NCBI GenBank assembly: GCA_025765615.1
Contig: JAIVFJ010000198.1
Location: 46,001 to 110,000 of the forward strand
Length of the DNA stretch: 64,000 bases
From: Zopfochytrium polystomum
Taxonomy: Eukaryota > Chytridiomycota > Chytridiomycetes > Chytridiales > Chytridiaceae
Direction of reading: 5' to 3'
This document shows, piece by piece, positions 26,164-60,817 of this stretch (positions within the stretch are counted from its first letter, which is position 1; every line of letters begins with the position of its first letter). The position numbers and the translations under genes are program-made. The notes under the pieces are model-generated. The model was not told where the DNA came from and ran no database searches. It saw only the letters and a program-made list of their open reading frames with translations.

Positions 26164-27751
26164 ATCTGCATGACTGATCATGTAATTACTTGCAAATATC
26201 AATGGTGTTTTCAAACAAAACAAAATTGCAAACATCAATGGTGTTTTCCATACAAAATCAACTGCCTCCCCTTTCTTTATTGCACATGACATACTACCCC
26301 CAGATACCATTGACTGAAATGTCTGCTGTGGTAAAAATCTATGTATTTCTTTGGGTAAACCATCACTAATTACAATAGGGAGTTTTTGCAACGCAAGGAA
26401 ATTTACTTTTCCTTGCTCAAATTTCCTGACAGGAACTTTTCCTTCGCTCACAAGGAAAAATGGCGAAGAAAATTCCTTGTGAGCGGACCGTCACAAGGAA
26501 GAACTTTTCCTTGTGAGAACCATAAATAAATCGTAAAACACAAAGAAGAACACCAAGGTCGTTCCCCACACGACCAAACCGCAACCGATGGCCTCCTGCT
26601 CAACAACAGTGGAGGCAGCACCAACTGCTGTCCTTCCCGCCACCGCTTTTGCACTGCAAGTTGCTACAGCTGCTCACTCGGCCGCTTGCAGACCAGCTGT
26701 TGGCGTAGGAAGTACTCCAGGTGCAGAACCCGCTGATGCAGAAGATCTAGATGGAGCGGGAGATGGAGCGGGAGAAGTGTGTTCAAAAGCCTGCAAGGGT
26801 TACAGTTGCGAAAGGGTCGGGGATTGGAAGACGATCACATAGAATCTCGTCTTTCGTAAAGCGGAAGTGGTGCAGAACTCTGATGTTGTCAAGGTGTTTT
26901 GTCGGCTGTACTGACGTAACAAGATGGCAAGACTGTCGAGATCGTCCTCGTCGTCAGTGAGGTCCTAGATGTCCATGTCATCAATCTCACAAGGAAAAAC
27001 ACAAGGAAATTTGGCTGTGGCAAAAACTAAATCCAAACAGGAAATCCTTCTTCGCCACAAGGAAATCTTTCACAAGGAAAAGTAAATTTCCTTGCGTTGC
27101 AAAAACTCCCTAATGTCTTTGACCTTAATATCCCAATCCGAATTTGTCCTCAAATGTTTCATTACATTTCCAACTTTATCAAAAAAGCTTCATGCAACAT
27201 CTAGAAGAACACTTTTCACATCCACTTTCTCCTAACCAAGATAACATAACATCCCACTTGTCCGGACTAAACAACTTCATCATTGAATTGATATTTAAGT
27301 TGCTTGTCGAAATTTTCTGTATCCAAAGCTTTTCTGAAATTGATGTCAAAGTATTTTCTTACAACTTTTTCTCCTAATTTCTCGTCACATATGTACTCCT
27401 CTTCATCACATCCTTCAGGTATTTCTACAAATTCACATGTTTCTATATTATATATTTCATTCTTGAAACCATACCAACCTTTGTCCTTCGCCAAGTATGG
27501 GAAGTAATGATCATCGACAATTTTTGAATGTTGTAAGCATTGCTCAACCAAATTGGGTTTCCTCTCAAAATTGTATTCAGAAACTTTTCAGGGTTTTCAT
27601 GAATAGTTCATAAGCAAACGCCTGTTTTCTTTGTACACTGCACCAGTCCCTTCCATTTTTCTATACTTTTCTTTCTGGCACATTCTTGAATGTCTGCAAC
27701 TATAAAGTTATAAATATCATCTTCTTTCCTTAATGTCACTTGAAGTACTCC
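26164..27751 (-). pseudogene. fragment of the D5-type primase-helicase gene
   Basis: Two blocks (27,751-27,115 and 26,373-26,164) match the middle of the gene at 42,030-43,778. The match runs from GVLQVTLRKE through CEFVEIPEGCDEEEYICDEK to PKEIHRFLPQQTFQSMVSGG and ASNYMIS. Both ends stop inside the gene, exactly at the arms. Frameshifts, a damaged Walker A region near 27,220 and a ~30-bp internal duplication near 26,190-26,240 make it non-functional. The nested MITE separates the blocks. Confidence 0.8.
26377..27111. mobile_element. 735-bp MITE with 39-bp perfect TIRs and AAT target duplication
   Basis: The 39-bp ends (AGGGAGTTTTTGCAACGCAA and onward, 26,377-26,415; complement at 27,073-27,111) are identical. 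The intact helicase gene reads ATTACAATGTC at this point. Here ATTACAAT precedes and AATGTC follows the element, so AAT was duplicated. The subterminal parts are dense in TTCCTTGTG and CACAAGGAA. The GC-richer core (about 26,560-26,960) has an 84-codon Ala-rich frame at 26,588 of doubtful meaning. A 3-bp duplication suggests a PIF/Harbinger- or CACTA-like source; superfamily not settled. Confidence 0.85.
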
Positions 27752-36258: not shown

Positions 36259-39025
36259 CTCACCATTCTGCACATACTGTTTAGGCTGTTCTGGGGTAGG
36301 AGCTACTTGATGATGGATGGTGGGAGGGTAAAACTGTGGTAGTGCCTCGCCGGTTCCTGTCAATACATCGCTTCAAATCCAGGTCTCTCAAGGTGATATG
36401 AATGAGTTGGCTGGTCAGGTATTATGTGGTGGTATGGTCTCTCTGGTATTCCTCCCTGTCCCTGGTGATGATTCCTTTGGCCTTTGGTGGGCCTGGTTCG
36501 CTGGGTTCAGACCCTCTTCCTTTCATGCTAATACCTGTGGTTGTCTTTGGTGTCTTCCTTGTGTGTGGGAGTGGGTATTGACCTTCCTTGCTTCTAAGAC
36601 AGGTTATTCTCTCTGGCCTGGTGAGGCAGAGGTCTGTCTCCTGGTAGGATGAAGCAAGAAGAGTCCCACTGTCTCCCACCCTGGTTGCACCCTCTCCCTT
36701 GGATTGAGTTGGAACACTCTCCTTGGAGTGAGACAAGTTGTGTCTGGTTCTGTTAAGTGGAAAACAGTTCTGATTTGGTTCAACAGGCACCTCTGCACAC
36801 TAACTGTTCCTTGTGTCTGCCCTTTGTCTCTCCAACCCCCTCCAACTCAGGGTTTGACTTGTTGTTTTTTTCTTTTGTTGTTTCTTTTGATGGGTTGTAG
36901 TGGCTTGTCACTCCCCTTACCAATTCAGTCGGTCTTACCGATCAAGTCGGTTCTGTCTCTGGTCTAACTTGGCTTTGGCCTTGTGCCACAGATGAAACCC
37001 TTCTGTGTCTTGCACCAGAGGATTATGCTTTCTTTTGTGATTGTGTCTGTTTCATGCTTTGGTGTGAGAAACCCCTCTTTTGTGTTAGAGATTTATTTGT
37101 GTTTTTCTTGGGCTTTTTAAGACTCCAAATACACTTTCCTGTCTAGTGCCCCTAGACACCCTCCTTTTGCCCCTTTTCATTAGTCAGGATTGGTATTTAG
37201 GTCCATGCTCTAGTTTCCACCTATAGCCCTAGGTGAGGAGTTAGAGAGCACAGTCTCACAAAGTGCCTTGCTTTTGGCCAGAAGTGGGACGTCAACTTCA
37301 TGTCGGGCTTGTATCACTCTTCAGTTATTATTCTGCTGTGTTCTGATTTGAGCATGAAGCGGATGCTGGAGGCTGACAAAAAGCTGGACAATTGCTTGTT
37401 GGAGGTGAGCTTGTTGATCTGATTTTCTGGTTGCTAAATGTAATCATTAGTGGGAACTTGCACTTCAGATGAAGGAAGAGAGGAGTCGACATCCTGCCTG
37501 TTCTTCTTTCGGGGCAGGTGGCTGCAACTCTTGAAGATGGGAGGAAGGAGTTGTTGGAGAAAAAGTTCAGCACATTTGATCACTCCAAGTTTCCTGACTC
37601 ACTTCATGCTCATCCTTTGAGCCCTGCCGCCACACTGTATCTCAAATTGTCAAGATGGTGCTGGAGCTGAATGGGCCCTTTGCCCATCCTGACAGCGATG
37701 TCCTCAAGTAATGCAATTGCATTTTTTTGTTTTTGTTGTGTTTCTTGAACCTTTCTCACACAACTTTGGATATGCAACAGAGTTGTCACCGTTGCAAGGA
37801 ACGTGTACAGTGAAGGAGAACAGTCTGAGAAGAAGACTCCCAATGCAATTTCGGATATTTCACTCTCCAGACCAAGATTGCATGAATTGGAAACGTGGCT
37901 GACTCCCCTGTATGACATCATGGACAATGAAAGGTAGGCCCTTCTGAAGAATGTGCTTTCTGGGTCCAGACAGTGGCTCCTCAACAGAGTGTTTCAGTTT
38001 CTGTCTCCGGATGATCTGTCAGCAGCAAGCAGCAACAGGGTGAGATTGAGTACACGCGGAATTTTCTGATAACATTGAACGCTGAGCAATCTGTGGTGGA
38101 TGATGGATCCAAGCTCCTTGTGTCAAAGTCATCTGGGATTTTTGTCTGGCTTGTTACTGCTTGCACCTACCTGAGGGATTCCAATGCTGAGGTCATTACC
38201 CTTGATGAAGTCAATACACATGCCAGAGGGAGACAAGATGAATGGCCGCAGTGATAAGTTGTATGACAGGATCTTTGCTGGCATTTTGGACTCGGCCAAG
38301 TTGAGCCAGTTGGAGTCCTTGCTTCACACTGTGCTGTCCATCATTGTCCTCGCATATGAACCACTGACTGCAGCAGCCATGGTGTCTGCCATTTGACAAG
38401 TTTCACACTGAGATCCCTGATTTCAATGAAATAGTTGCAAATGGGCTCCCTGAGCATGTCAGAGCTGCGGTGAAGCATTTTTGGGAGCACTGCTTTCATG
38501 ACTCAGGGGAACTCTCCCCAAAGACATTTTCAGTGGAGTATCAGACAACCTCAAAAAGCCTCTTGGCGGAGGTGCAAACTTTTCTTGAAAATCACAGACA
38601 TCACTTCCTTGAGGCCTGCAGCTTATTGGACTCACTCAGTCTGGTGATTCCTGCCATGACGAAGCTTCAGACTTTGTTGAATGATTCTGGAAAGAAAACC
38701 TTGGAAACGTTGATGACAGACATTAACAGAGTTTTTGCAAAAGTTTCTCATTCCACTCAAGGCATCAGCGTTACAGGTTTTTCCTTTCTCTACAAGTGGT
38801 TCTGAATTTCACAAGAAACTTGTAGAGAAGTTGCCACGCAGCTTGTCATTCCCAAGTGCTGGACACTCGCTGGAGCAGCGTGGAATAAAGCATCTCCTAT
38901 CATCTCAGTTTCCTGTAATGGCCCTGCGCTGCACTTTTTTGAGCAGACTCCACCAAAGTCAAAGAATGCCAACATGAACTGTCATATTTGAGGAGGTTCA
39001 AAGGACTGTGGTAGGTTGCACCCAA

Positions 39026-39869
39026 TTTTCCGGAGGGCGCTCAGCACGGAGGCTTTCACGCGCGAAGAGTTTTTTTTAATAAGTGTCAAGAAAATAAAAT
39101 TTTAGAAATAATGTCCAAAAAAAGAACAAAAAAATAATGTAATGAAAAGTTTTAAATTAAAAGTGATATTAAAGTTTTTTATGGATTGTTTCGTGAGAAT
39201 TTAGAGTATTTTAATCATATTTATGCTTTAACTTCTAATTATTCCAATTATTTGACTTTTTTTAACCCTAGTCCTAATTTTTGACTTCTTTTTTCTAATA
39301 ATGTGTCACAAATATGGTATGAAATTGGGAATAAAAATGTGTAATATATATTTATCAACTGAAATGTATATTACATCGCCACTAAAGTCTTTTTCACAAT
39401 ATTTCTTACCTAATTTATGGTCACAATTTGAATAAAAAATGTGTAAGATATATTTATCGACTGATATGTATCTAACATCGCGCCACCAAAGACTTTTTAT
39501 TGACAATTTTAGCTTAATTTATGTCCAATAATATTAACTTTTTCGTTTGAAACATATTATATGTTTTTTTTTCTAAAAAATTTTCATATTATATGTTTCC
39601 TTATTTGTTTCAGATCGAACAGACTTTTCGGACTATTTCCTTCTTTGGAAACTAACCATAATATGAACCAGTCGAACAGATTTCTCAACTTCTCAGTTGC
39701 GATTCAGAGTATAAGTAATAATATATCAAAAAATATTTGAAACATTTTCATATATATCTTTTTCACAGTGTCTTCATTATGTATTCCTGAATGGGGTGAT
39801 TTTTCTTGACACTTATTAAAAAAAACTCTTCGTGTGTGAAAGCCTCCGTGCTGAGCGCCCTCCGGAAAA
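39026..39869. mobile_element. 844-bp element with ~69-bp terminal inverted repeats
   Basis: TTTTCCGGAGGGCGCTCAGC and onward at 39,026-39,094 is repeated inverted at 39,801-39,869. The only changes are CGCGCG to CACACA-type differences and a single A. The interior is AT-rich and belongs to the non-coding repeat found again at 40.8 kb. No clear target duplication (left ...CCCAA, right CTCAG...). It marks the left border of the AT-rich viral block. Confidence 0.7.
39103..39495 (+). repeat. AT-rich non-coding repeat A, copy 1
   Basis: Direct repeat with 40,778-41,172. Shared blocks include TAGAAATAATGTCCAAAA, AAGTTTTTTATGGATTGTTT, GAGAATTTAGAGTATTTTAA and CTGAAATGTATATTACATC. Contains no ORF. 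Confidence 0.75.
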
Positions 39870-39902
39870 CTCAGGAGTTTTTTTTAATAAGTAGGTGGTG
39901 TT

Positions 39903-40454
39903 TCAGAACTTCCTCTTTTTTCTCATATTCATTACCCACCTGTATCTTGCTATCTCTTTCCCAGTCTTTTCTTCCATATCATTCTTGTAGAATAAGTAAA
40001 TCACTTCCATTGCATCATTCATTGGCTTTTTCATACTTTCTTCTAATGTTTCCATCATTTTCCTTTCCTTATCCTCTCCATCTCCATCTGGATTGTATCT
40101 TATAAACCTTACTGGCAGCCCTAAATTGTATACTATGTTTGCCATTCTTATTTGTTCACATTCTTTTGATTCATATTGATGTTGTAATTCATCAACCTCC
40201 AATATCACAAAATATTCAAGACAATCAAATAAAAAATCAGGTCTAAATTTCCTACAACTTGCATCTTTATTTACTGGCTTGTCATGTATATAACTATATC
40301 CTTCTTTGTCTAGTAATTCTTTTACCCTTAATTCTTTTTTACTTCTTCTTATCCCACAATATTCACATTTCCCTAAATAATCCAAATCATCATATTCTAG
40401 CCCACAATCTTTACATCTACTCTGATCCATTTTAATATGTATTTCCGTAGACAT
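39903..40454 (-). CDS. zinc-ribbon plus restriction-like nuclease of viral type
   Basis: A 183-residue intact ORF. The N-terminus is a zinc ribbon (CKDCGLEYDDLDYLGKCEYC). The rest is a PD-(D/E)XK-like fold with FRPDFLFD then ILEVDELQH, a cysteine and arginine following (CEQIRMANI), and RFIRYNPDG. Such proteins are common in giant viruses and their mobile satellites and are rare in fungi. It is likely a DNA endonuclease; substrate unknown. It is divergent to the small gene at 40,534, with a 79-bp spacer that must hold both promoters. Composition is strongly AT-rich, unlike host genes. Confidence 0.65.
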   Translation of the reverse strand: MSTEIHIKMDQSRCKDCGLEYDDLDYLGKCEYCGIRRSKKELRVKELLDKEGYSYIHDKPVNKDASCRKFRPDFLFDCLEYFVILEVDELQHQYESKECEQIRMANIVYNLGLPVRFIRYNPDGDGEDKERKMMETLEESMKKPMNDAMEVIYLFYKNDMEEKTGKEIARYRWVMNMRKKRKF

Positions 40455-40533
40455 TTACATCCTTCAATATTTTAATAAACATTTCTTTACGCGCTCTCGT
40501 TTAAAACTTTTTCTTCATACATTAATTGTATTA

Positions 40534-40758
40534 ATGCTCTCACATGAATTCACTTCAACTATTGACAATTTGTCCCAGCGTGACCTCGTTCGACTTTACT
40601 TGTATGTCATTCCTAAAATTCAACAACTTAAAGAAAAACGTGGTCGATGCTTCCATAATATTGTTTATGCTGTAAAACATCCTGAGAAACTTCAAGAAAT
40701 TCAACAAGCGTCTCGTAAACGCTCTTCCCCTCCTTTGTTAGATACATTTGTCAATTGA
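40534..40758 (+). CDS. small conserved protein, family member 1
   Basis: A 74-residue ORF. Core LSQRDLVRLYLYVIPKIQQ followed by VYAVKHPEKLQ and the C-terminus DTFVN. It is clearly related to the ORF at 44,247 (LSKSDFLRHYLFVVQEFQ, FVRHPDKFR, DIFVN). Function unknown; mostly helical and basic. Stop codon and 3' tail (TTGATTTATACCTATCCCGC) are shared with the paralogue. Confidence 0.6.
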   Translation: MLSHEFTSTIDNLSQRDLVRLYLYVIPKIQQLKEKRGRCFHNIVYAVKHPEKLQEIQQASRKRSSPPLLDTFVN

Positions 40759-40777
40759 TTTATACCTATCCCGCCCT

Positions 40778-41172
40778 TAGAAATAATGTCCAAAAAGTAA
40801 TGAAAAATATAATGTCAAAAAAGTTTTAAATTAAATGTGATATTAAAGTTTTTTATGGATTGTTTCGCGAGAATTTAGAGTATTTTAATCATATTTATGG
40901 TAATATTTTCTAATTTTCTAATTATTTGACATTTTTTTTTTTTAACCCTAATCCTAATTTTTTGTCTTCTTTTCTAATAATGTGACATAAATATGGTGTA
41001 TAATTTGAATAAAAATGTTGTAATATATATTTATCGACTGAAATGTATATTACATCAGCAGCTAAAGTCTTTTTTTAACATTTCTAACATAATTTGTGGT
41101 CACAAAACATTTGCTAAAATGTGTAATATATATTTGTCGACTGAAATGTATATTACATCGCCACTAAAAATC
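40778..41172 (+). repeat. AT-rich non-coding repeat A, copy 2
   Basis: Begins right after the 3' tail of the small gene at 40,534-40,758. Block order is as in copy 1, with small indels. The following stretch to about 41,700 is AT-rich without ORFs. Confidence 0.75.
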
Positions 41173-41725
41173 TCTTCTGAAACTTTTATGGTCACTATTT
41201 ATGTCATATATATTACTTTTTTTTTGAAAAAATTTTCATATATATGTTTGAAATCATTTCCTTATTTGGTAAGTGTTTCAGAGCGAACCCGTCGAACAGA
41301 CGTCGGCAGCTAAAGTCTTTTTTTTTACATTTCTAAACTAATTTATGAGCACATTTCATTTGCTCTTCACATGAAACATATTATATGTTTTTTTCATATA
41401 TATTTTCTTCATAATTTATGACAAATTTCATCAGCTTTTCTCCTATATTTCCCTTGTTCCAGATTAGAACAGACTTCTCAACTGTAATATATCAAAAATA
41501 ATTTCAAAACATTTTAGTTTGTTATTTTTATGGTCCTCATTATTTATTCTTGAATGCCTTGTGGTTAAATGTTTTCAAAAACATTCTTCTTTGTGATATA
41601 TTTATGATCATGTATTAGATTGTATAAGACTTGTATTATCGACGTATTGTATAAGTTCTTTTTTCTTCTATATTTTCTATATTTTTTACCCCCCTCCATC
41701 ACTCTCATTTATGAATTGAAAAGGT

Positions 41726-42029
41726 AATAACAACGACCATAATATCCTCTCCCCCTTTTCTTCTATATTCTATATTTTCTACAAGCCATTTTACATTCAT
41801 AATATTTTAATTTTTTTTAATTTTTATTTTTTTATGAGAATTTTTGGCCTTTTTTTTGTATAGAATATAGAAAAAATTTGTTGTTGATAATCCCGTCACA
41901 ACATTTAAACTCTTTTCCTCCATGGTCACAAATAAAGTTTATAGAAAAATATAGAAAATATAGAAAGACCATTAATCAAAGTTTCATCGAACTTTTATCC
42001 CTTTAATCACATCTTCCGACGTATAATTC
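41726..42029 (+). repeat. AT-rich non-coding repeat B, copy 1
   Basis: Runs up to the stop codon of the primase-helicase gene, so it is its 3' flank. Shared blocks: AATAACAACGACCAT, TTTGTTGTTGATAATC, AACTTTTATCCCTTTAATCA and GACGTATAATTCTTAC. Second copy at 52,752-52,985. Confidence 0.75.
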
Positions 42030-44166
42030 TTACTCCCTGTATTGTTCACAACATCCTCGTTTGTGATCTTTCCTGCAATCCTTGCATATTAGTTTTTTTA
42101 ATTGCTGATATCTACTATCACATGCCAGTATACTTCCTTTACAATTTTGACCTGATTTTTTTGTGGTGTCTCTTTCATAATGTGACTTAATGTCTTTCAG
42201 TCTCAATACAGAATTCTCATCATAGACGTAATGTATTTTGACATACTTGAAAAATGGATTTCTTTCTGTTCTAAGATCCTCCTGCTTTTCAATGAAATAA
42301 GAAGGTGCCACATCCCATATGCTTTTATTTCCGACACGCTCCTCCCATTTTTTGTACAACAATGTGGACTTGTACAATATTGCATCTAGTTCTTCTTTTC
42401 TTATTCTATCAATCAACGAAGTGTCTTTCTGTCTAACAATGTTTTCAAACTGTGCAACCATCACACGTCTGCTAATTTGCCCCATATCTGTATAACTGAT
42501 CATGTAATTACTTGCAAACATCAATGGTGTTTTCCATACAAAGTCCACTGCATCTCCGTTCTTTATTGCACAAGACATACTCCCACCAGAAACCATAGAC
42601 TGAAATGTCTGTTGTGGTAAGAATCTATGTATTTCCTTGGGTAAATTGTCACTAATTACAATGTCTTTGTCCTTAATATACCCCAATCCAAATTTGTCTT
42701 CAAATGTTTCATTTATATTTCCAACTTTGTCAAAAAAGCTTCTTACAACATCTAGAACAACACTTTTTCCACAACCACTTTCTCCTAACAAATATAACAT
42801 AACATCCCACTTGTCCCTTATACCAAACATTCTTCCAATCATTGCATAAATGAACTCAACAACCTCATCATTGAATTGATATTTAAGTACTTTGTCGAAA
42901 TTTTCTGTATTCAAAGTTTTTCTGAAATTGATGTCAAAATATTTCCTTACAACTTTTTCTCCTAATTTCTCCTCACATATGTATTCTTCCTCCACATCAT
43001 CACAACCTTCAGGTATTTCTACGAATTCACATGTTTCTATATTATATATTCCATTCTTGAAACCATACCAAGCTTCGTCCGTCTCTAAGTATGGGAAGTT
43101 ATGATCGTCATATTTGGTCATGTATAGAGACAATTTTTGAATGTTGTAAGCATTGCTCAACCACATTGGGTTTCCTCTCAAAATTGTATTCAGAAACTTT
43201 TCAGGTTTTTCAATGAATAGTTCATAAGCAAATGCCCGTTTTCTTTTGTACACAGCACCAGTTCCCTCCATTTTTCTATACTTTTCCTTTTTGGCACATT
43301 CTTGAATGTTTCCAACTAGTGAGTTATAAATATCATCTTCTTCTTTCCTTAATGTCACCTGAAGTACCCCCATTAATTGACTGGTATCTTCCTGTCTCAT
43401 TTGGACAGATCCATGACTGAAACAGTTCTTAAAACCAATACCATTTTCATTGATATATACGCAGCTGTGACCTATCTCTCCGTGGTCAATATCTGGTTGT
43501 ACAATGCATTGTCTTCCTCTTGTTGTTAATTTAGTATTTTCTCCCATTTCTAAGTCCCACTCCTCCTCCAGTACTCGTCTATTTAATATTTTGTTTACTT
43601 TTTTTGTTTCGCCCTTTTTTAATTTCCTTGATCCAGAACCTGACTGGTTTTTGATTTGATTCTGATTTGGATGTAAAGAATTTAATTTTTCTATTTCTAT
43701 ATCTGATAGCCTCCTTATTTCTTTGTCCGTTATTATTTTGTAACCATTCCCTTCATAACAACAATGTTTATCTGTCAAAATGTCTATATGCTTCTCTTTG
43801 TTATTTACATTTTTTCACTCTCTCATCATATTCATAATATATGTGATGCCCTTTTGATCCTGTTTCAGTTATGAGAGTTTCTTCTTCATTCAAAGGTCCT
43901 ATGTTTTCCTCAAACCACTTTTTTGCAGTGTATGCTTCATCTTTTCTATCTAGATCCACCACAATTATATTGCTCTTATTTCCAGTCAAAATTGAGATAT
44001 TTGTTTGATTTATATACGTTGAAGATTCTAAATATTGCCATTTCTCTGGTCTTGCCCCTGTTCTCTTTTCCCCATTCTCTCGCCAAATGTTTATACCATA
44101 ATATATCCATCCTTTTTCGTGTGATTTACCTCTCATTTCATCTAGATTACTTTTTCTCTGGTCCAT
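42030..44166 (-). CDS. AEP primase / SF3 (D5-like) helicase of viral type, split by a one-base frameshift
   Basis: Two minus-strand frames form one gene of about 710 codons. The first (44,166-43,801) holds archaeo-eukaryotic-primase motifs I and II (VVDLDRKD and TGSKGHHIYYEYD). The second (about 43,808-42,030) opens with motif III (IDILTDKHCCYEG). It continues through a linker to an SF3 helicase: Walker A GESGCGKS, then IVISDNLPKEIH, QSMVSGGSMSCAIKNG and MFASNYMIS. It ends in a Cys-rich tail (CKDCRKDHKRGCC). The break lies at the A6 run 43,810-43,815. The fold should prime and unwind DNA for viral or plasmid replication. The host lacks such genes; homologues sit in nucleocytoplasmic viruses, virophages and related elements. 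A piece was copied to 26-27.7 kb. Confidence 0.75.
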
Positions 44167-44246
44167 TTCTAGTTATTTTTGGTTTAAAATATCTAAAGAA
44201 TATTTATTCAATTTTTGGACTCTCACTAATTTAAACATTTGTCTTC

Positions 44247-44477
44247 TTGAATTATGGTAATATGCAATCTCCACTTCAAGATCAAACTCTTGCTCTTTCC
44301 AAGTCAGACTTTTTGCGACATTATCTTTTTGTTGTCCAAGAATTTCAGAAGAGAAAAGCTCTTAATCCTACTGCAGTTGATAAACTCATGTACTTTGTTC
44401 GACATCCTGATAAATTTCGAAAAAAAAAAACAATATCAGCTTCAAGACGCAACTCTGTTGATATATTTGTGAATTGA
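44247..44477 (+). CDS. small conserved protein, family member 2
   Basis: A 76-residue ORF, divergent to the primase-helicase with an 80-bp spacer, as member 1 is to the nuclease gene. Aligns with member 1 over about 60 residues including the C-terminus. The same 3' tail follows the stop. An alternative start 7 bases downstream is in another frame and is not preferred. Confidence 0.6.
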   Translation: MNYGNMQSPLQDQTLALSKSDFLRHYLFVVQEFQKRKALNPTAVDKLMYFVRHPDKFRKKKTISASRRNSVDIFVN

Positions 44478-44657
44478 TTTATACCTATCCCGCGCAAAGA
44501 TAATATATCAAAAAAAATTTCAAAAAAGTTTTCATATATTATTTCACACAATCATTTTCAGCTGGTAACCAGTTGAACAGACGTCCCGGATTTTTTGTAT
44601 TCTTATTTAGCTGCACTTGAACAAAATTGAAAGTTTATTCTCTATATAAATATCTAT

Positions 44658-45900
44658 AAATGCTTGAATTAGAGGAAAAAATGAACATGATAAGAATAGA
44701 ACAACTTCTTACATCAAGTGAAAAAATATTTAATGATGAAGGGAAAGATATAACAAAGAAATTCATGATAATTTGAAAACTTGCACAGGAAAAACAAAGG
44801 TTAAGTATTCATTTGCAAATGATGCTAAATATGGAAGATTATATGCTGATAAAGGTTATCAAAACATGTCAACGAAAGTAAGAAGTTATATAATGAATGA
44901 TTTGTACATGTACATTGCTATAAAAGATTGTCATCCAGTTCTATTGAATCAATTACTTGAGAAACATTTAGAAAAGCAAAATGAATTTTTAAAGAATTAC
45001 TTCATGAATATGAAACAAGATGGATTTTCAAAAAAAACATTCATTTAGTCTTCTCTATGACTCTAATGCTACCACTTTCAATAAAGATATACAACAAATG
45101 CTTATCATGTTATATGGTGCATATGTACCAGGTTTAGTTAATGAGTTTATAGCAAATTGTTGGGATTCGCCTCCAGATACAAATACTACAATATTCTTTG
45201 ATGTATTCAATAATACTAAGTATAACCAGAAAGGAAAATTTTTAAAAAAGGTTGTTCAGAATATTGAGAATGACATATTGATGATTATGTATAATAAGCT
45301 ACAAGAAATGGATCTAGTTATAGGGACTTTACTATTTGATGGACTAACAATTGAAAGAAGTAGTGTAAAGGATAAGAAAATAAATGATATACTCTCTGAA
45401 CTTGAAAAAACAATTAAAGAAGAAACTGGTTACAAAATTGAGTTAGTTAAAAAGCCAATTGAAGAAGTCATCTTAAGTAAGGCCTTTAATGGAAAGGAAC
45501 TCAATGTATATGTATCTTCTGAAGAACCACTTTTTGATATAAAAGAAATATCTGAAATACTGAGTTTAGATGAAAATATTGTACTGGATGATGAATATTA
45601 TGTAGGTGATTTAATATCAGTTGATGGAGTATTCTCCATTATTAATAATAAAGAATTCCGAAAATGGTTTATTACATTGTTGAAAGAATTATTTCAAATG
45701 GAAGAAAAAAAGAAAAGATTACAAGTCGAGAGTGAATTTACCAAATATACAATATCAAAGGAAGGTATAATTACGATATCTGTGAATGTCTTAATTGTGG
45801 AGCGAATACAGATGATGAAACATATTTAGGAGCTTGTGAAGATTGTTACTTTAAAATCGTAAGAGGAGAATTAAAAAACAATAAAATTAGCTGGTTATAA
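44658..45900 (+). pseudogene. frame-broken polymerase-like gene (TVpol type) with C-terminal zinc ribbon
   Basis: Four consecutive segments in shifting frames: 44,658-44,757, 44,773-45,040, 45,026-45,770, and about 45,770-45,900. They contain KYSFANDAKYGRLYADKGYQ and MSTKVRSYIMN, then a motif-A-like IAIKDCHPVLLNQLLEKH, FSLLYDSNATTF, and ENDILMIMYNKLQE. A motif-C-like GTLLFDGLTIER comes next, then KPIEEVI. These resemble the transposon-viral family-A polymerase (TVpol) that in virophages is fused to an SF3 helicase. The last segment is a zinc ribbon (CLNCGANTDDETYLGACEDC) close to that of the nuclease at 39.9 kb. At least three frameshifts and a missing catalytic Asp in the first motif argue for a dead gene. 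Confidence 0.5.
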
Positions 45901-46158
45901 ATCTGCACACACTACAAAATGTATCAAAATTTTTCAAAAAAGTTTTAATATATATTATTTCACACTACCAAATTCGTTTTTCAGCTGGTAGTGTTTCTTG
46001 GAGAACCCGTTGAACAGACCTCCACATATTCTATTATTCACCAAACATACTATATTAATTTCCTTCTATTCGCTTATCAAAATTTTTCTAAAATAGTTTT
46101 TCATATATTATTCTTCAATCTACTTCCTCTGTTACAACATTTTCTGTCAACAGAGTAC

Positions 46159-46193
46159 TTTGTTAGATACATTTGTCAATTGATTTATACCAA
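46159..46193 (+). pseudogene. 3' remnant of a third small-family gene
   Basis: TTTGTTAGATACATTTGTCA and ATTGATTTATACC are identical to the last codons and 3' tail of the gene at 40,534-40,758 (LLDTFVN, stop). Nothing of the rest of the ORF remains upstream. Confidence 0.6.
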
Positions 46194-46400
46194 ACCGCAC
46201 AAATATAATATATCAAAAAATTTTCAAAAAAGTTTTCTTATATTATTTCACAATAACCATTCTATTTTTTTTCCTTTTGTGTTTTGGCACACATTCTGTT
46301 TCTCCATTAAATTACCCTCAAATATAATTTGAGTTTTCTTCTTTAGGCAAAATAATATATCAAAATATTTTCAAAAAAATTTTCATATATTGTTTCACAT

Positions 46401-47292
46401 AATTTCTTTCAGTGCCATCAGATTCTTAAAAACTTATGAAACCATAACACTCTCACTTTTTTTGACATGCTTCCATATCTATCAGCATTTGCAAATGAAT
46501 ATTTTACCAAGTCGACAGGCGGGACATTGTTGTTGTGAGCGAGGTTGGCGTTCTGAAAGGACGCCTTGTCAAACAGAATTTCAAAAGGGAAAAAAAAGAA
46601 AGGAAAAATTGAACAAAGGAAGTGATCCATCCCATGTAAGAACGTGCTCATCGCCCTCTCTCGACCTTCCAAAAGATACCCTCTCCTGTGGCGGATCTCT
46701 TAATCGATCGCTTAGATCTTTCCAAAACAAATCTCTGTGACGATTTCCTTGATCTCTCTCAATCTCCCTCGATCTTTCTCCTGATCTCTCTCTCGATCTC
46801 TCTCGCATAACTTTCCAAATTCTTTTGACCATTTCCTCTCAATCGCTCGATTCTCTCGATCCCTCAGCCTCTCTAGATCTTTCAATTATTCCAACTGAAA
46901 CCCAGTGTTAGAATTCTCTCACATCCCACGCTTTGTATTGATCGCTTTATGCTTGATCCCCTGTGACACTTACCTTCGTTGATCGTTGCATCTCAACCTT
47001 ATCGAATTGACCTTGCAATCATCGTCGATATTTACCAATCCCCTTTGATGGATTTAGATTCGTCAACGGTGAGAACGACCACCCTACCTTGTCAAGCCAG
47101 TTCGATCCCCGCTCATACAACTACTAATTTCCTTGATGAGCGGTGAGCAATCACTTTGAGACAAGGCAATCGACTGACTTTTTTTCGATTCAGTTATACT
47201 CATTCCCCCTCCCCCCATCTGTTACGAAGCTATTTTCTACATATTCTATCGTCAAAATCTAACACTCCTCTCTTACTTCCAGAATCTGAAGA
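46401..47292. other. 5' region of the NLR gene
   Basis: Transition from AT-rich viral DNA to host-like DNA near 46,500. Contains a cluster of GATCTCTCTC-type repeats at about 46,745-46,880. No gene is seen; the promoter of the 47,293 gene should lie here. Confidence 0.4.
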
Positions 47293-50200
47293 ATGGCCAA
47301 CCAAGTGACTGCATGGACTGTGATCTTTGTGTATGAAGGCACTGGAAGGAAGATCCGTGTACCTACAGCCACTGGTTTCGACAGCTTGCTTCAGCTTGTT
47401 GTTGCCAAATTTCAGATCCCTGATGCCGTGGAGTTGCTGTACGTGGACCCCGCCACAAACGATGCAACAATCCTTGATGCAGATGATGATCTGTCCAACT
47501 TGTTTACTCAAAATTATAAGTGGAAGGTAATTATTATGTTCTGTCTGAATTTTTCTGTCGTTCTGTTCGATTCAATTCTCAAATTCTCAAACTTGAAAGG
47601 TTCTTGGCGCTGTGAAAGCTATCTCCACTGGGAGTGTTGCTGGTTCTGCGGCGGCCACAAACAGCCCTGGATCTGTTGCTGCTCCTCCTACTGGATCTGT
47701 TGCTGCTACTGCAAATGACATCTACGATAAAAGTCTTGCACGCAAGAAAGGTGAGAAAGACGTTTCTGTTCGTTTCGTAAATGCAAACACTTGTCTTCTT
47801 CTTTCTGTAGATAAATGGATTGACCTGATTCCAGATAATTGGGTGTGCAAAACAAAGGTTCAAAAGCACCCTTTTTTTATCAGGTATATTTTCTCAGTTT
47901 GCTTTTCACCTATGTTAAAACTCTGCTAGCTACCGGCAAGCATCTGAAACGGCCTTTGCAAAAAGTCTATTTGAAAGGATGAAGATCAACCTCTTGGAAG
48001 CTTACACTGGATCTGTCCTCCCTGAGGAGTCCAGGCTGGATGGGAGACATGCTTTCTTGGATGCGGAATGCCTTTCTTACGCCGAAGAATGGGGTATCAA
48101 CTTCATGTCTGGACTGTTTCACTCGAAAGTTATCATTCTGCTGTGTTCCGATGAAAGTATGATGAGAATGCAAAGGCTGATACAGAGCCTGATAACTGCT
48201 TGTTAGAAGTAAGTTCTTCCTCCTCATCCACATTGCACTCTGACAAATACCTTTAGTGGGAGCTTGCACTTCAGATGAAGAAAGAAAAAGGCCATGACAT
48301 TCTGCCTGTCCTTCTTTCTTGCAGGGAAGATGGAACCTGGGCAAATGGCAAGAAGGCAAAGGTCTTGGTAGACTTCAGCACGTTTGACCACTCAAAGTTT
48401 CCTGCTGAGCCTCATGCACACCCTCTGAGCCCGAGACTCCAAACAGTGGCTGAAACTGTCAAGATGATTTTGGATCTGAATGGGCCAAAAGCAAACCCTG
48501 AGACTGATGTGATGAAGTAAATGTCAACTCTTTTTAACGTCTATCTTTCTTTGCATTGTACTGATCCTGTCATAAAGGATTGTGACTGAAGCAAGAGAAG
48601 TTTATAGTCGCCGTAAGGCTGAATTGAAGACTGCTAGTCCAAGCCAAGATATTTTACTTTCCAGATCTAGTTTTGCTGAATTGGAGAAATGGTTGTCTCC
48701 CCTGTCTGAAATCATGGATCTTGAGAGGGAAGCTCTCTTGAAGACTGTTCTTTCTGGATCTAGGCAGTGGCTGCTTGAGAGAGTGTTCAAGTTTTTGTCT
48801 CCAGATGATCCCACTGCTGCCAGCGCCAACAGGGTGATGTGGTTGAAAGGTGTGGCTGGAGTGGGCAAGTCTGTGATGGCTGCTATGGTCTCCAGGGAGC
48901 TGCAGGCCCAGGGGATGCTTGGTGGCTTGTTCTTCTGCAAGCATGATGACGAGCGTCGCAGCAGTGCTCGAAACCTGATCTTGACACTTGCGTTTGGTCT
49001 TGCAAGGTTCAACCTTCAATTTGGAGAGATTCTGCTTCAAGTCAAGCAAAAAAATCCAGATATTCTGTCCAAATCTGTATTTGAGATGATGAATGTCTTG
49101 CTTGTTCAGCCACTGAAGAAAGTTGTTGAAAGCAAGAAGCTGAATGTACCTATGGTCCTGGTTGTGGATGCCCTTGATGAATGCAGTGTTACTGGGAAGA
49201 GGAATGAGATTCTTTCAGTGTTTCAGGAGCTCAACAGGCTGCTTCCTGAGAATGTGAAGATGCTGGTGACTGGACGGCCTGAAGTAGATATTGTGAAAGC
49301 CTTTGAGATGATTCCTTTTGAGGAGATTGAGCCAACGGCTGAAGAGAACACTCAGGACCAGATTGAGTTCACAAAAGATTTCCTCAGGTCCTTGGGTGCT
49401 AAGAAATCTGTTGTTGATGAGGGATCCAAGATTTTGGTGTTGAAGTCTGCTGGAATATTTGTCTGGCTTGTGACTGCTTGCACTTATTTGTGGAAATTAG
49501 AGACTGAAGAAATCACACTTGAGCAAATTAAAGACCTTCCCGACGGTGACAAGATGGATGGAAGCATTGACTTGATGTATGACAGAATATTCAATGGCAT
49601 CCTTCAGTCCATCAGAGAGAGTCATTTGGAAACTCTTCAAGCTGTGCTGTCCACCATTGTCCTTGCCTGTGAACCGCTGACTGCAGCAGCCATTGTCTCT
49701 CTTTTGAACAACGAGACACCTGACAATGAAAAAGTGATGAAATGCATCCGGCTGCTTGATCCTATCCTTGTGCTCGATGGTTCCACCAAGAAGATTAGGA
49801 TTTTCCACAAGTCTGTCAAGGACTACCTGACAAGCTCATCGCGATGCAAGTTGTCTGTTCAGATTGACCTGGAAAGTAGCCACTCTGAATTTGCAAGGCT
49901 GTGCATCAATGCAATGGACAAGAGTCTGAAATTTAATATGTGTGATCTGCCATTCTCTGACTTCCACTCTGAAATTCCTGATTTTGATGAGAAAGTGCGA
50001 AAAGGAATCCCTGAGAATGTCCGATATGCAGTGAAGCATTTCTGGGAGCATTGCTTTGATTCCTCAGTGGAAACTACCGACCAGACTACTGATATGGAAG
50101 AGAAGCAACATCCAGAGGCATCATCCCCCACACAAGACACAAATGCCAAAGGAAAACAATCATTTTTCAGTTTATTCAAGAGGCATAGCAGAACAAAAGT

Positions 50201-52268
50201 TGTTGCCCAGCAGACAGAATATGCACACAAGAAACCTGTGACTTTCATCAGCAAATTCTTTCAGATTGACCAGACACTGTCTGCTGACTTGCAAAAATTT
50301 CTTGTGCAACACGGACATCACTTCTTGGAAGCATGCAGTTTGCTAGACTCACTCGATCTGGTGATTCCAGCCATGACCAAGCTCCAGATGCTTGTTCCTG
50401 ACAAGACACACCAACTGCACACCCTGATGGAAGACATGAAAAGGGTCGTGCAAAAGTTTCTCATTCCGCTTAAGGCATCTGCGTTGCAAGTTTACTTCAC
50501 TGCTGTTCCCTTCTCCCCAAGCGACTCTGAATTTTTTAAAACATTTGTTCAGAATGTGCCTGGAAGTGTAAGGTGCCCTAAAGTTGTGAAGGGGCAACCA
50601 AAATCTTGGCCTTCCTGTTTAAACATTCTTGAGGGACACTCTGACTTGGTCAACTCTGCAGCATTTAGTCCTGATGGGCAGTTTGTTGTGTCTGCAAGTC
50701 GTGACAATACAGTCAGGATTTGGAATGCTTCCACTGGTCAGGAGCTGCATAAGCTGAAAGGACACTTTAGTGATGTCAACACTGCAACATTCAGTCCTGA
50801 CAGTCAGTTTGTTGCGTCTGGAAGTTGGGACAATACAGTCAGGATTTGGAATGCTTCCACTGGCCAGGAGCTGCATAAGCTGAAAGGACACTCAAGTTGT
50901 GTCAGATCTGCAGCATTTAGTCCTGACAGTCAGTTTGTTGTGTCTGGAAGTTGGGACAATACAGTCAGGATTTGGAATGCTTCCACTGGCCAGGAGCTGC
51001 ATGAGCTGGAGGGACACTCTGGAGGTGTCAACTCTGCAGCATTCAGTCCTGATGGGCAGTTTGTTGTGTCTGGAAGTGATGACAAGACAGTCAGGATTTG
51101 GAATGCTTCCACTGGCCAGGAGCTGCATAAGCTGAAAGGACACTTTAGAGATGTCAACACTGCAACATTCAGTCCTGACAGTCAGTTTGTTGTGTCTGGA
51201 AGTTGGGACAAGACAGTCAGGATTTGGAATGTTTCCACTGGTCAGGAGCTGCATAAGCTGAAAGGACACTCAAGTAGTGTCATCTCTGCAGCATTCAGTC
51301 CTGACAGTCAGTTTGTTGTGTCTGGAAGTGCGGACAATACAGTCAGGATTTGGAATGTTTCCACTGGCCAGGAGCTGCATAAGCTGAAAGGACACTCAAG
51401 TAGTGTCAACTCTGCAGCATTCAGTCCTGACAGTCAGTTTGTTGTGTCTGGAAGTGCGGACAATACAGTCAGGATTTGGAATGCTTCCACTGGCCAGGCG
51501 CTGCATAAGCTGGAGGGACACTCAAGTAGTGTCAACTCTGCAGCATTCAGTCCTGATGGGCAGTTTGTTGTGTCTGGAAGTGGTTATGAATATGGTGAAG
51601 TTGCTGGTGACAATACAGTCAGGATTTGGAATGCTTCCACTGGCCAGGAGCTGCGTAAGTTGGAGGGACACTCTAGTCGTGTCCTTTCTGCAGGATTAAG
51701 TCCTGATGGGCAGTTTGTTGTGTCTGGAAGTGTGGACAATACAGTCAGGATTTGGAATGCTTCCACTGGCCAGGAGCTGCATAAGCTGGAGGGACACACT
51801 GATCGTGTCATCTCTGCAGCATTCAGTCCTGACAGTCAGTTTGTTGTGTCTGGAAGTGCGGACAATACAGTCAGGATTTGGAATGCTTCCACTGGCCAGG
51901 CGCTGCATAAGCTGAAAGGACAAACTTCTTATGTCGACTCTGCAGCATTCAGTGCTGATGGGCAATCCGTTGTTTTGCAGGACAGAAATGCCAAGATAAT
52001 TTTCGTCAACCTTTGGACAGGATTGCCGGTGGAAAGAAGTGATATTGCACAAAAAAGCCTGGCACACAATTTTAGTGGACGTTATTCATCAGGAATGCGG
52101 AAAGCTTTCCTTGAATCTGTGATGAAAGATGTTGGTGTTTGGTTCATCTTTGATGTCACAAAAGTCAGTTGCTGGCTTCCTCCTGAATTTCGTGGTGATC
52201 TCCAGCTCCCCTCAAGGCAAAATATTTTCATTCTTGGTACAGGCTTTTCTTCTGTCATACAATTTTGA
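47293..52268 (+). CDS. NLR-type receptor: ubiquitin-fold-like + TIR + NACHT + 11 WD40
   Basis: Exons 47,293-47,526; 47,600-47,750; 47,811-47,883; 47,930-48,208; 48,257-48,516; 48,578-52,268. Exon 1 is a ubiquitin/PB1-like fold (GRKIRVPTATGFDSLLQLVV). Exons 4-5 form a TIR domain (ECLSYAEEWGINFMSGL, SKVIILLCSD, DNCLLE, then WELALQ and ILPVLL). Exon 6 is intact for 1,228 codons. It holds a NACHT P-loop GVAGVGKS, Walker B MVLVVDALDECS, a helical region, then 11 WD40 blades (42 residues each, 10 nearly identical) and an 80-residue tail. In exon 4 one base is missing at about 48,171 relative to the 37.3-kb paralogue; the frame runs to TAG at 48,204-48,206. Thus as written TIR and NACHT are in different frames. 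Such STAND proteins act as intracellular sensors of non-self in fungi; ligand unknown. Confidence 0.8.
50629..51990 (+). repeat. tandem 126-bp WD40 coding repeats
   Basis: Eleven units with AATACAGTCAGGATTTGGAA and CAGTTTGTTGTGTCTGGAAG nearly invariant. One unit carries an 11-codon insertion (GYEYGEVAGDN near 51,580-51,612). The last is degenerate. Variation is confined to a few positions after GH and at the blade's outer residues. Confidence 0.9.
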
Positions 52269-52368
52269 TTAGAAAATGGCTGTCTCTTTGGCATTCTGTG
52301 CTTTCGTATTTTTTTCACCATTGGGCAGACTTGTTTTATCAAAACTGCGTGTTGTTAAGATTGAAGAA

Positions 52369-52374
52369 AATAAA
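52369..52374 (+). terminator. polyadenylation signal of the NLR gene
   Basis: AATAAA about 100 bp after the stop codon at 52,266-52,268. Confidence 0.5.
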
Positions 52375-52751
52375 CGGTCAATGAGACATTATTAGTCCTT
52401 TTGCTGCACAATGCAGCTAAATATGCACAACAAATAATATTCGTGCTTTCAGTAGTACTAAATTTGTAATTCCTTCTTACAATAATTCACTAAATTTCTT
52501 TTTTTCATGGATTAAGACAGCTTCACATTCTTTTTTTTTATCAATTTATGCCCATTCCAGACACCTATATCGGCGTCTTGTCGCTTTCTCAATAGTACTT
52601 GCACGCATTTGTATTTTATCAAGCCTGTGCGAAGATACTTTATTAAAAATATTTTTGAAAATTTTACCTCGATCTGCTTAAAAATTTTGACAATAGCAAT
52701 GTTACGTATTTTTACTTGTAAATATTCCCCTCCATTTATAAAAGGAATGGC

Positions 52752-52985
52752 AATAACAACGACCATTCCCCTCTCTTTTTTTTTCTATATTTTAATATTT
52801 TCTACTATAGAAATATAGAAAAAATTTGTTGTTGATAATCTCGTCACAGCATTTAAACTTTTTTTCTCTATGGTCACATATAAAGTTTACAGAAAAATAT
52901 AGAAAATATAGAAAGAACATTAAGCTAATGTTTCGCGAACTTTTATCCCTTTAATCACATCTTCTGACGTATAATTCTTACTTCC
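52752..52985 (+). repeat. AT-rich non-coding repeat B, copy 2
   Basis: Matches 41,726-42,029 in block order. In copy 1 the primase-helicase coding sequence follows at once; here the similarity stops at the same point and unrelated AT-rich DNA follows. So it marks a second viral-type element or a duplicated intergenic unit. Confidence 0.75.
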
Positions 52986-53028
52986 GTCCTATTTATTTTT
53001 TTAGTTAGTGTTTCGAGTCGAACTGGTT

Positions 53029-53518
53029 GAACAGACCCCCACACATTCTATTTATTCCGCAAACATATTATATGAAATTTTTTTGAATATTTTTCATATA
53101 TTATTTTTTATTCAGACACTCTGTCCAAATTTGTTTTTTTTTGTTTTCTATTTCAAATTAAAATAGATCACATTTTGTATCACATTTCGTATTCCTTTTT
53201 ACTGTCTGAAAATTATATCACGTCTGAAAAATTTTCTAATCTTTATTTTTTTTTTAACCCCCCTTCCCAATTTTTTAAAAACCCCATCAGGTTTCCAAAA
53301 TTTTTCAGACGAAACCATATTTTTCAGACAGAAAAAAATATATTTATTTATGATATAAATCTCGTCGCAACTACATTCCATTTTGAATTTTATTCAAGCA
53401 TATTTTAGATTTTTTTCAGACATGACGATAACTTTTTCAGACAGATTTTTTATGATATAAATATCATCTTATACAAATTATATTTATATAAAAACAAGTA
53501 TTATTCCACTAACATTTT
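53029..53518. repeat. AT-rich spacer with repeated TTTTCAGAC motifs
   Basis: Contains a GTTGAACAGACCCCCACACA module (53,027) like that at 46,010. It also has about eight copies of TTTTCAGAC or its complement (53,111; 53,204; 53,222; 53,301; 53,321; 53,412; 53,433; 53,515). The last overlaps the stop codon of the helicase gene. Confidence 0.6.
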
Positions 53519-54309
53519 TCAGACAGAATCAGGAATGTCCTCTACATCTATTTCTTCTTTGAATTTTAATCCCTTCCAACCTTTCTTTTTAATATTTGAA
53601 TTTGGTGTTTGTCTTAAACTGTCGATAATTGACCAGTCCTTTTCTGGACATTTTCCACCAAACTTTTCTCTGAACTTTCTCTCCAGCATTTTTATCAACT
53701 CTTTTTCTTCTGTCTTTGTTAATATCTTTCCTATATCCTCCCCCCATTTTGAACTTATGTCTTTGAAAAATATTCTATCATTATCAGTATTACTACTTTC
53801 TATATTGTTATCTATCCATGTTCCAAACTCATCACAGTCTTTTTTGTATTGATTTGTGCTTATCTTTACCTCTTCGGGTTCTGGTACGTCTATTGACAAA
53901 TAATCAATTAATATTTTCATGAATCCTTGTCGCCAGGACACATCTTCAACCATTTTTGCGTTCAGAGTTTTATCTACTTCATATTCATTTGGTGCTGATG
54001 GGTTTTCCACAAACTTACTATGAAAGTTTATCACATTTATTCTTCTCCAAATCGCTTTTTCTTCCGCTGGTACTTCAGGTAAAGTGTTACATGCCATGAA
54101 TAGTTTTGCTTCAACTTTTATTGTTTCTTGAGATTTAAAAAGCTCTCTTACACTAATTCTATCATTACCTGTTATTTTTTTCACAATTTGTGGATTTATC
54201 TTATCCTTTGATCCAGTTTCACTCATATAAACAAATCTTTTGTTCTTTAATTTCACTAAATGAGATGTAGCAGCTCCTGGGTCTCCTGTTGGTTTTGTGA
54301 TTAAGGTTG
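53519..54309 (-). pseudogene. second SF3 (D5-like) helicase, 5' part removed at the copia LTR
   Basis: The C-terminal half of a viral-type helicase. It runs from TTLITKPTGDPGAAT through LKNKRFVYMSETGSKDKINP, NDRISVRELFKSQ, LFMACNTLPEVPAEEKAIWR and RINVINF to the end DIEDIPDSV-type tail (VDVEDIPDSV region). It belongs to a different subgroup from the helicase at 42 kb. Walker A and everything N-terminal are missing: the reading frame enters the LTR at 54,310, and no continuation exists beyond the other LTR at 61,010. Confidence 0.7.
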
Positions 54310-54509
54310 TGTTGAAATAAGTTTTTTTTTTTTTTTTTTTAATTATTCCTTCCACCATGTTACATACAGGATACATTGGTGGGTACTTGCAACACAAGCT
54401 TATTAGCAGGCTCAGGACGCGTCGTATCTTTATCCAAAGAGATAAGCCGTATAGGCTTCTGAACCTTTTTGCTTTCCCACACGTTATTGTCTTTCAATGA
54501 AATGCAACA
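54310..54509 (-). repeat. 3' LTR of the copia element
   Basis: 200 bp. The plus-strand ends are TGTTGAAATAAG and AATGCAACA. It contains a T19 run. Confidence 0.9.
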
Positions 54510-54525
54510 CCCCCCCGCAAGAACG
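54510..54525 (-). other. polypurine tract
   Basis: On the coding strand a run of seven G directly precedes the 3' LTR, the expected plus-strand primer position. Confidence 0.7.
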
Positions 54526-54664
54526 AGCTGGGTAATTCAAGACAACTCAGTAATCACAGACTTCATGTCTACTTTGTAGTACCAAACTCGTAGAGGGACT
54601 CGAACCCTCACATGAAAGTCTTTGCCTATCAAAATCAAACCTGTAGAAACTTTGAATAGGTGTA

Positions 54665-59731: not shown

Positions 59732-60817
59732 TTTGCAGATCTCAGAAATTAAATCCGCTTTGGAGATAAATTCTGAAACGGAGTCGGAGTTTTTCTTTGC
59801 TGTCCGTACAACTCACGTAGTTTGCAGGAATTTCAGCAGTACTAGTTCTCAATGGCTCACAAGTCCAAAGAGTGTGCAAAAATTCTCAATGGCTCACAAG
59901 GTCCAAAGAGCAATAAATCAGTGACTCAAAAGTTCGCCAGAAAAATTCAGGGTTGACAATGATGAAAATCTCCGAGGCTCAAAGGTCCTCAGAAAAATTC
60001 AGACTTGATGACTGGCGATGATAGATAGCAATATTGGTAATGATAGGATATGAATAGTTGGAATAAAAATCAAACGGTCAGAGATCCAATCCAATTTCGA
60101 CGTTCCAAAAAAAAATGTAAGCGTCGACAGTCAAAATTCAGCAAGTCGACGTTCGACGTTTCAAATTCAGCAAGTCGAACTCGCGATTTAAAATTCCGGA
60201 TCTCGACAATCGACGTTCAACGTGTCCAAGAGTCTCAACGTCTTCAAATCAGTGGGTCGACGTTCCAAAAATTCAAATCGACGTTCGCGAATTCAAAATT
60301 CAGCAAGTTCGTTCGACGAATTCAAAATGCAAATCGGCAATGCGACAGAGATCTCGACTTTCAAAAATTCAGCAGGTCAATCCTGATGTTTCGATGATTC
60401 TCGTCGAGTTCCAAAAAAAAAATTCAGAGATCTGGTCTTCAGAAAAATTCGGAAATCGTGGTAAGCGGTTGGAAATCGATGGAAACAGATGGATCTTAGT
60501 TGGATATTAATGGATCCGTCACGTAGGGATTGAAAAACGCGCTCGGGGATGTAGATCTCTTGCTCGGGGATGTAGATCTGTTTGCGTCGAGCGAAGATCT
60601 GTTCGCGTGAAGCGGAGATCGGAGTTCAAAATTGAGAGATCTCGTTGCGGCGGTGGTGAAAGAGTCGGTGATAGTTCACTGCGGTGGATGACCACGCGGT
60701 TGCGGGCGGCGCGCGGTTGCGGGTGGGACGGGGACGGCGTCGGGGCGGGAGGACGGCGTCGGGTGGATGACCGCGCGGTCGCGGGCGGAGTTTGAAATTT
60801 GCCTATGGTTCTCTTTG
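59732..60817 (-). other. 5' leader of the copia element with internal tandem repeats
   Basis: A 1.1-kb untranslated leader. It holds direct repeats of TTCTCAATGGCTCACAAG (59,848 and 59,880). It also holds many short copies of AAATTCAGCAAGTCGA and GTCGACGTTC between 60,100 and 60,400, GCTCGGGGATGTAGATCT twice (60,541; 60,562), and GCGGTTGCGGG-type repeats at 60,690-60,790. Confidence 0.6.

Follow-up and report, generated by a model that had tools for sequence, protein, structure and literature searches.

An AT-rich island occupies positions 39,026 to about 46,510 of a 64,000-nucleotide stretch of Zopfochytrium polystomum DNA (the window), which is part of contig C198 in an assembly of 80.16 Mb and 761 contigs. 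We propose, with a probability of roughly one half (0.52), that this island stems from the integration of a linear replicon, in a copy now decayed and truncated on its right side; the replicon would have had covalently closed flip/flop hairpin telomeres of the kind known from poxviruses and nucleocytoplasmic large DNA viruses (NCLDVs). The replicon family would measure at least about 18 kb and carry AEP-SF3, TVpol-SF3 and D5-type primase-helicases, a nuclease and variable cargo. The proposal is built on a multicopy family with a conserved but modular gene order, on palindromes with an adjoining motif, on the presence of both hairpin orientations and on joins to host DNA that lie within the hairpin.

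The island is a truncated copy of one repeated family that is dispersed through the genome. Searches of the assembly gave 76 match rows with the SF3 open reading frame (ORF) of the window, 29 with its TVpol ORF, 62 with the TVpol-SF3 ORF of locus L038 (helicase-only paralogues counted in) and 49 with the nuclease, the last grouped by hand into 26 loci; these counts are lower bounds and refer to rows, not loci, as one locus may give several. Over the primase-helicase region the window DNA is 96.8–98.5% identical to long stretches in contigs C471, C63, C144 and C554, and half of the region is shared with C25 at the same level, while an older group is about 74% identical. An open AEP-SF3 ORF of 770 residues is present at C118. 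The TVpol-SF3 ORF of L038 has 798 residues, with its final part in a separate ORF, and is not a complete gene.

The copies share an order of genes that runs from RING/C-rich genes through a D5_N gene, small ORF A, AEP-SF3, variable cargo, small ORF B and the nuclease to a palindrome, a terminal unit and the end. The terminal unit is either a 4.2-kb TVpol-SF3 unit, as in C118, or a unit of 0.63–0.85 kb. The cargo is either a leucine-rich repeat (LRR) protein or a D12 methylase with a protein that was taken for a helicase by eye and gave no Pfam match. At L027 and L028 the AEP domain is paired with a different SF3 helicase and modules have therefore been exchanged. The replicative helicases found are of the SF3/D5 type. 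The C118 copy is at least about 18.5 kb long (31.9–50.5 kb), judged by the sequence it has in common with other copies.

Relatives outside the assembly are distant. No close relative emerged among IMG/VR viral contigs (queries: AEP-SF3, TVpol-SF3, two alignments and P0001), and the one locus returned, L042 at 21% identity, was left out of further analysis; phage records gave weak primase matches only, in six records. Protein databases returned three relatives of AEP-SF3 (24–30% identity), six of TVpol-SF3 (best 39% over 95%) and 36 of the nuclease, none with an organism and most without a name, so that they give the element no position. Among the fold matches, the best named viral ones include proteins of the Zamilon and Qinghai Lake virophages.

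Terminal palindromes and joins with host DNA

Read outward from the terminal unit, the ends consist of TTTTCTTGACACTTATTAAAA followed by an imperfect palindrome of 58–87 bp, with single changes to TTTTCTTGACACTTATTAAAA at some ends (L023 alpha, L054). Twenty-nine contigs contain a total of 51 copies of the 16-mer that adjoins the hairpin, and its reversed control is absent; 27 of the 51 sites were read and 24 unread. At 17 of the 26 nuclease loci the 16-mer lies within 300 bp of the nuclease and faces it. All eight inner ('beta') junctions that were read have a full palindrome with the nuclease on its far side.

Five palindrome classes, unrelated to one another in inner sequence, were distinguished; one of them was seen once. 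Both orientations (flip and flop) are present in each of the four classes with at least two elements, although in the 58-nt class the call depends on only about 7–9 diagnostic bases per inverted join. One and the same hairpin is found inverted in C471 relative to the window, and at C75 the two hairpins of a single element differ in orientation. Short AAAAAAAG...CTTTTTTT hairpins were also seen in or near element copies (L012, L014 and L036); they resemble the hairpin transcript ends of mimiviruses.

Judged by its letters, the motif appears similar to a resolution site. Compared with the vaccinia sequence as printed, the motif of one hairpin class agrees at 19 of 22 positions, and that of three others at 18 of 22. 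In vaccinia, mismatched flip/flop hairpin ends adjoin the concatemer resolution site (passages of PMC8956199). When up to four mismatches to the vaccinia sequence were allowed, the loci scanned contained 22 hits, 21 of them beside a recognised palindrome and the remaining one next to an arm-like stretch (L011, 9749). In a Markov control matched to the island in composition there were 0.01 hits per 7.5 kb at four mismatches and none at three or fewer. Loci L043–L054 were chosen for carrying the 16-mer and hence lend the motif no independent support; 16 of the 22 hits are in other loci.

Nineteen outer ('alpha') joins with host DNA were aligned, of which 17 are independent and 16 of these assigned to a class; the set of 16 leaves out duplicates (L053 copies L043; L046 copies L045) and L050, whose class is unassigned. 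Every one of the 16 lies inside the palindrome, nine of them near its apex (0.40–0.52 of the palindrome length). A second L011 end (9744), joined to sequence upstream of an AEP gene, falls outside this set. The host sequence at the joins includes an F-box gene, cut at C118, and one long terminal repeat (LTR) family at C75 and C319; because these two joins cut gypsy LTR copies, they are younger than the copies concerned. At C18 the likeness to this LTR extends over 42 nt only. The LTR is that of the gypsy element at L041, which has identical 309-bp LTRs at 25–333 and 4932–5240. An identical insertion join and flank occur on two contigs, at L043 (G000:C99:225964) and L053 (C344:49644), the result of duplication after insertion.

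Capture, carrier and competing explanations

Three features, namely the two orientations of the hairpin, host joins within it and the adjoining motif, lead us to favour linear DNA with closed hairpin ends that was captured by host repair. Free copies would be hairpin-ended linear molecules that replicate via concatemers, resolved at the hairpins with the motif as the resolution site. Broken or opened ends would then be captured by the repair machinery of the host and not by a transposase. The units of 0.63–0.85 kb between two outward motifs may be mini-chromosomes that fused to the main part, and the junction between unit and main part would no longer be resolvable, the motif being absent on its other side. 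In poxviruses the inverted repeat that is resolved sits between two resolution sites (passages of PMC8956199); here a motif on one side only would explain why the inner junction persists.

The weakest step concerns the carrier. A giant virus may have carried the replicons and perhaps lent them a resolvase; it would be the most likely carrier because capsid genes are not visible in the replicon. The replicons may have lived as satellites of a giant virus that left a VLTF3-bearing fragment in the same assembly. A bolder version, possible but in our view doubtful, would make them a new kind of eukaryotic genetic parasite: a linear replicon that lacks a capsid, has TVpol and AEP primase-helicases of its own and mimics the telomere of a giant virus. 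The virus would for this reason resolve and carry the replicon, which would have entered the genome of a chytrid-like fungus repeatedly, in the form of hairpin-ended DNA. If so, the 0.7-kb units with two telomeres would be mini-chromosomes of natural origin, and fungi would be expected to have an undescribed giant virus that resolves its telomeres as poxviruses do.

Traces of such a virus in the assembly are few. Genome-wide searches gave no match to Pox_A32 (the A32 ATPase), one to VLTF3, in C340, and one to the NCLDV capsid. The capsid match comprises 53 residues (78 bits) at L029 (G000:C206:50226-50384), with no AT-rich segment in the surrounding 3.2 kb, and may be an exon from a capsid gene captured long ago. 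Neither a major capsid protein (MCP) nor A32 nor VLTF3 was seen inside any element read. The giant-virus-like locus L040 (G000:C340:1026-5000) has a VLTF3 ORF of 192 residues, a caspase-like ORF, a tail-collar-like ORF (by eye) and RING-like ORFs; it ends with a gypsy LTR, and the tail of its second RING ORF is LTR sequence.

These traces bear on the principal alternative, namely that the islands are terminal fragments left by one endogenised giant virus (Nucleocytoviricota) or several, with genomes that end in hairpins as in Kaumoebavirus and the poxviruses, and that the host captured these hairpin ends preferentially. In Kaumoebavirus an imperfect flip/flop hairpin of 102 bp adjoins a terminal inverted repeat of 1,032 bp (TIR; passages of PMC7909422), the VLTF3, caspase-like and tail-collar-like ORFs lie in the AT-rich first 5 kb of C340, and one-sided truncation fits the broken ends of a large genome. 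We nevertheless consider this explanation unlikely, if one to be taken seriously, in the face of dozens of replication-gene match rows against a single VLTF3, a single capsid fragment and no A32. The swaps between copies (LRR gene or methylase with helicase-like gene, exchange of helicases, TVpol or short unit) also suggest many small replicons. Composition separates a replicon from a giant virus weakly, because C340 starts AT-rich (GC 0.27–0.38 in its first 5 kb, beyond the first kilobase) and seven 100-bp samples further along it have GC 0.32–0.45.

A cut-and-paste DNA transposon, with terminal inverted repeats that are palindromic by chance and with the short units as miniature inverted-repeat transposable elements, is improbable. 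Seventeen pairs of outward-facing motifs do enclose units of 0.63–5.9 kb, 13 of them below 1 kb, and the short units resemble internal deletions of the longer one. Yet the island ORFs submitted to Pfam gave no transposase or integrase, the host joins fall at variable points within the palindrome, and each of four classes occurs in both orientations; a target-site duplication could not be read, the far sides being mostly unread. The transposon is also favoured by the agreement in outward orientation of both hairpins in six of seven elements (C18, C25, C49, C118, C198 and C471; not C75). This agreement weakens our proposal of hairpin-ended replicons, since a terminal inverted repeat would give the same.

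Further observations weigh against that proposal. The evidence comes from integrated copies only, and neither a free molecule nor a read nor a closed end was seen. Consistency is limited to the end that bears the motif, the other sides being truncated or unread, and the count of 16 out of 16 joins is conditional, as the joins were located via the motif and cuts within the unit would escape. Two pairs of alpha ends fall short of proving an element with hairpins at both ends: those at C99, a candidate complete element, are 18.9 kb apart, and those at C114 (L045, 131216; L046, 105528) are 25.7 kb apart and have identical inverted flanks. The C114 pair is a large inverted duplication or an assembly artefact. 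The resemblance to vaccinia was spotted only after the motif had been defined, and a search of the window with the vaccinia motif at three or fewer mismatches gave no match. A search for an A22-type resolvase was empty in the genome but equally so in all controls, so that absence is not shown. Finally, the RING/C-rich genes of the elements also occur in C340, which over much of its first 5 kb equals the islands in AT-richness; the shared genes favour giant-virus ends.

Two points from the literature bear on the significance of the family. Firstly, as of 2023 no double-stranded DNA virus infecting fungi was known, according to the abstract of PMC10640383. Secondly, Bellas et al. left fungi out of their survey of integrated viruses (a passage of PMC10120064), and such elements could thus easily have escaped notice. 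In literature listings at the level of titles, abstracts and selected passages we found no report of such an element in a fungus. Readable telomeres in a dispersed family make several questions testable: which giant virus infects the lineage, whether telomere resolution of the poxvirus type predates the poxviruses and their kin and extends beyond them, and whether opened hairpins are a route for linear DNA into eukaryotic genomes. The elements may show how such DNA reaches fungal genomes.

The island in the window and its surroundings

The GC content of the island is 0.30, against about 0.45 for its surroundings, falling to 0.26–0.35 across 39–47 kb of the window with sharp edges. At its left edge a partial terminal hairpin, 54 of the 72 nt of the palindrome, is joined to host DNA (39026..39079, minus strand) and adjoins the 22-bp motif of the alpha end, which matches vaccinia at 18 of 22 positions (39073..39094, minus). 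The short non-coding terminal unit that follows (39095..39800, no strand) probably arose by internal deletion from the TVpol-SF3 unit of 4.2 kb at L038, because both of its ends are common to the two sequences. Beyond it lie a second, inward-facing copy of the motif, the beta end, again with 18 of 22 positions as in vaccinia (39801..39822, plus), and a complete internal hairpin palindrome of 82 nt that includes perfect outer arms of 18 nt (39811..39892, no strand).

The zinc-binding nuclease has an open frame of 183 residues (39903..40454, minus). Its putative assignment as PD-(D/E)XK/VSR-like is based on motifs and one database name, as a fold search with the nuclease model gave no match below E 0.05, its top rows a mixture of restriction enzymes and cap-snatching nucleases. 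Divergent from the nuclease is small ORF B (40534..40758, plus), followed by a non-coding stretch with partial homology to the terminal unit (40777..41560, no strand). The primase-helicase gene consists of an SF3 helicase half (42030..43778, minus) and an AEP (Prim-Pol) half (43801..44166, minus), which in the window copy are in different frames; small ORF A (44247..44477, plus) is divergent from the AEP gene. The TVpol relic (44624..45829, plus) has an interrupted frame, and both motif A aspartates, invariant in six rows of alignment A1, are replaced; its helicase half was not found beside it. The primase-helicase and TVpol genes of the window copy are broken, and the functions of the family genes are those predicted from sequence. 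AT-rich non-coding motifs of 38–67 bp are repeated at 45918..46412 (no strand) and also adjoin other island genes. The right edge carries a 39-bp piece of the TVpol relic in inverted orientation (87% complementary; 46470..46508, minus), and no terminal palindrome is listed there.

An earlier note, made from the window alone, had described an AT-rich island in GC-rich DNA with an AEP-SF3 gene, a polymerase-like gene of TVpol type, a zinc-ribbon nuclease and small ORFs in divergent pairs, and the composition and ORFs agree. No capsid or integrase gene is visible in the island, as the note had also remarked in calling the element plasmid-like rather than a full virus. Its endogenised state is supported. 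A misassembled contaminant, which the note had named as a possible refutation, was set aside, given the recurrence of the family across numerous contigs and the host genes or LTRs that certain joins interrupt. The host was called fungal, which is supported, short of proof, by 21 match rows for Chitin_synth_1 and eight for the radial-spoke family; this predicted gene content fits a flagellated, chytrid-grade fungus. The note had overlooked that the family is repeated, that it has hairpin ends and a longer form, and that the window contains a second island.

That second island (52101..54550, no strand) belongs to the same family and contains a D5-type helicase ORF (53519-54397, minus); an older primase-helicase relic lies at 26164..27680 (minus). 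A copia element (54307-61010) with terminal repeats of about 200 bp, 96.6% identical, starts at the edge of the second island and overlaps the start of the D5-like ORF. The first island is flanked by paralogues of a WD40 gene (NACHT-type by eye) at 37264-38854 and 48582-52268, and similarity in the left fragment stops about 170 bp short of the hairpin join. WD40 and copia genes are the neighbours here; gypsy (by eye) and F-box genes occur elsewhere in the assembly.

Comparison with known systems

TVpol has been described in Sputnik, OLV and some Polinton-like viruses (PLVs; passages of PMC3671162 and PMC4642659). Virophages of the Sputnik/Zamilon type and TVpol-bearing PLVs (PgVV, PLV-YSL1, PLV-RED1) share with the present family the fusion of TVpol to an SF3 helicase; the family differs in its additional AEP-SF3 gene and poxvirus-like hairpin ends. 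Degraded PLVs or virophages, their capsid genes lost or in unread parts, would fit in size and in this fusion, but we hold them to be the least probable origin considered here. Among the loci read we recognised no major or minor virophage capsid protein, packaging ATPase, cysteine protease or integrase, no virophage capsid profile having been run. For the MCP, minor capsid protein and ATPase of PgVV-like viruses (PLV definition in passages of PMC4642659), the genome-wide profiles, none of them of PLV type, were those of the NCLDV MCP and Pox_A32, with the single fragment and the empty result given above. Neither the protein-primed PolB nor the RVE integrase of Polintons was seen among the island ORFs submitted to Pfam, no genome-wide search having been made. 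Hairpin telomeres are not among the PLV features described in the passages cited, and membership of the family in virophages or PLVs is not shown.

The earlier note had preferred a plasmid- or transpoviron-like element, and the likeness to transpovirons is not supported. Transpovirons of Mimiviridae and of pacmanvirus lostcity are likewise linear, plasmid-like, capsid-less and possibly carried by giant viruses. They are, however, about 7 kb long, with TIRs of 380–520 nt; they encode no DNA polymerase, according to passages of PMC7031253, and their conserved helicase belongs to superfamily 1, according to the title of Krupovic et al. (2016) cited there. The SF3/D5 helicases, the TVpol and the length of the C118 copy do not fit transpovirons.

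Endogenous phaeovirus elements of Ectocarpus are also giant-virus DNA with a palindromic telomere site, proposed to yield closed telomeres (passages of PMC13236599). They are large and have a tyrosine recombinase, a telomere resolvase and an A22-like resolvase, none of which was recognised in the loci read here. The endogenous viral region of Rhizophagus irregularis (passages of PMC10640383) similarly places double-stranded DNA virus sequence, with MCP not found, in a fungal genome; it is a 1.5 Mb asfar-like region in which D5 was not detected, and not a dispersed family of small elements.

Close parallels are also seen with the telomeres of poxviruses and extended asfarviruses. What differs is that here the inner hairpin sequence varies between classes and the hairpins are carried by small multicopy elements in a fungus-like genome, their covalent closure being presumed. 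In common are an imperfectly paired hairpin in two orientations, seen here in integrated copies, and, with the poxvirus telomere, a motif whose order and direction relative to the hairpin are as at the vaccinia resolution site. Kaumoebavirus has a similar hairpin layout at the scale of a giant virus.

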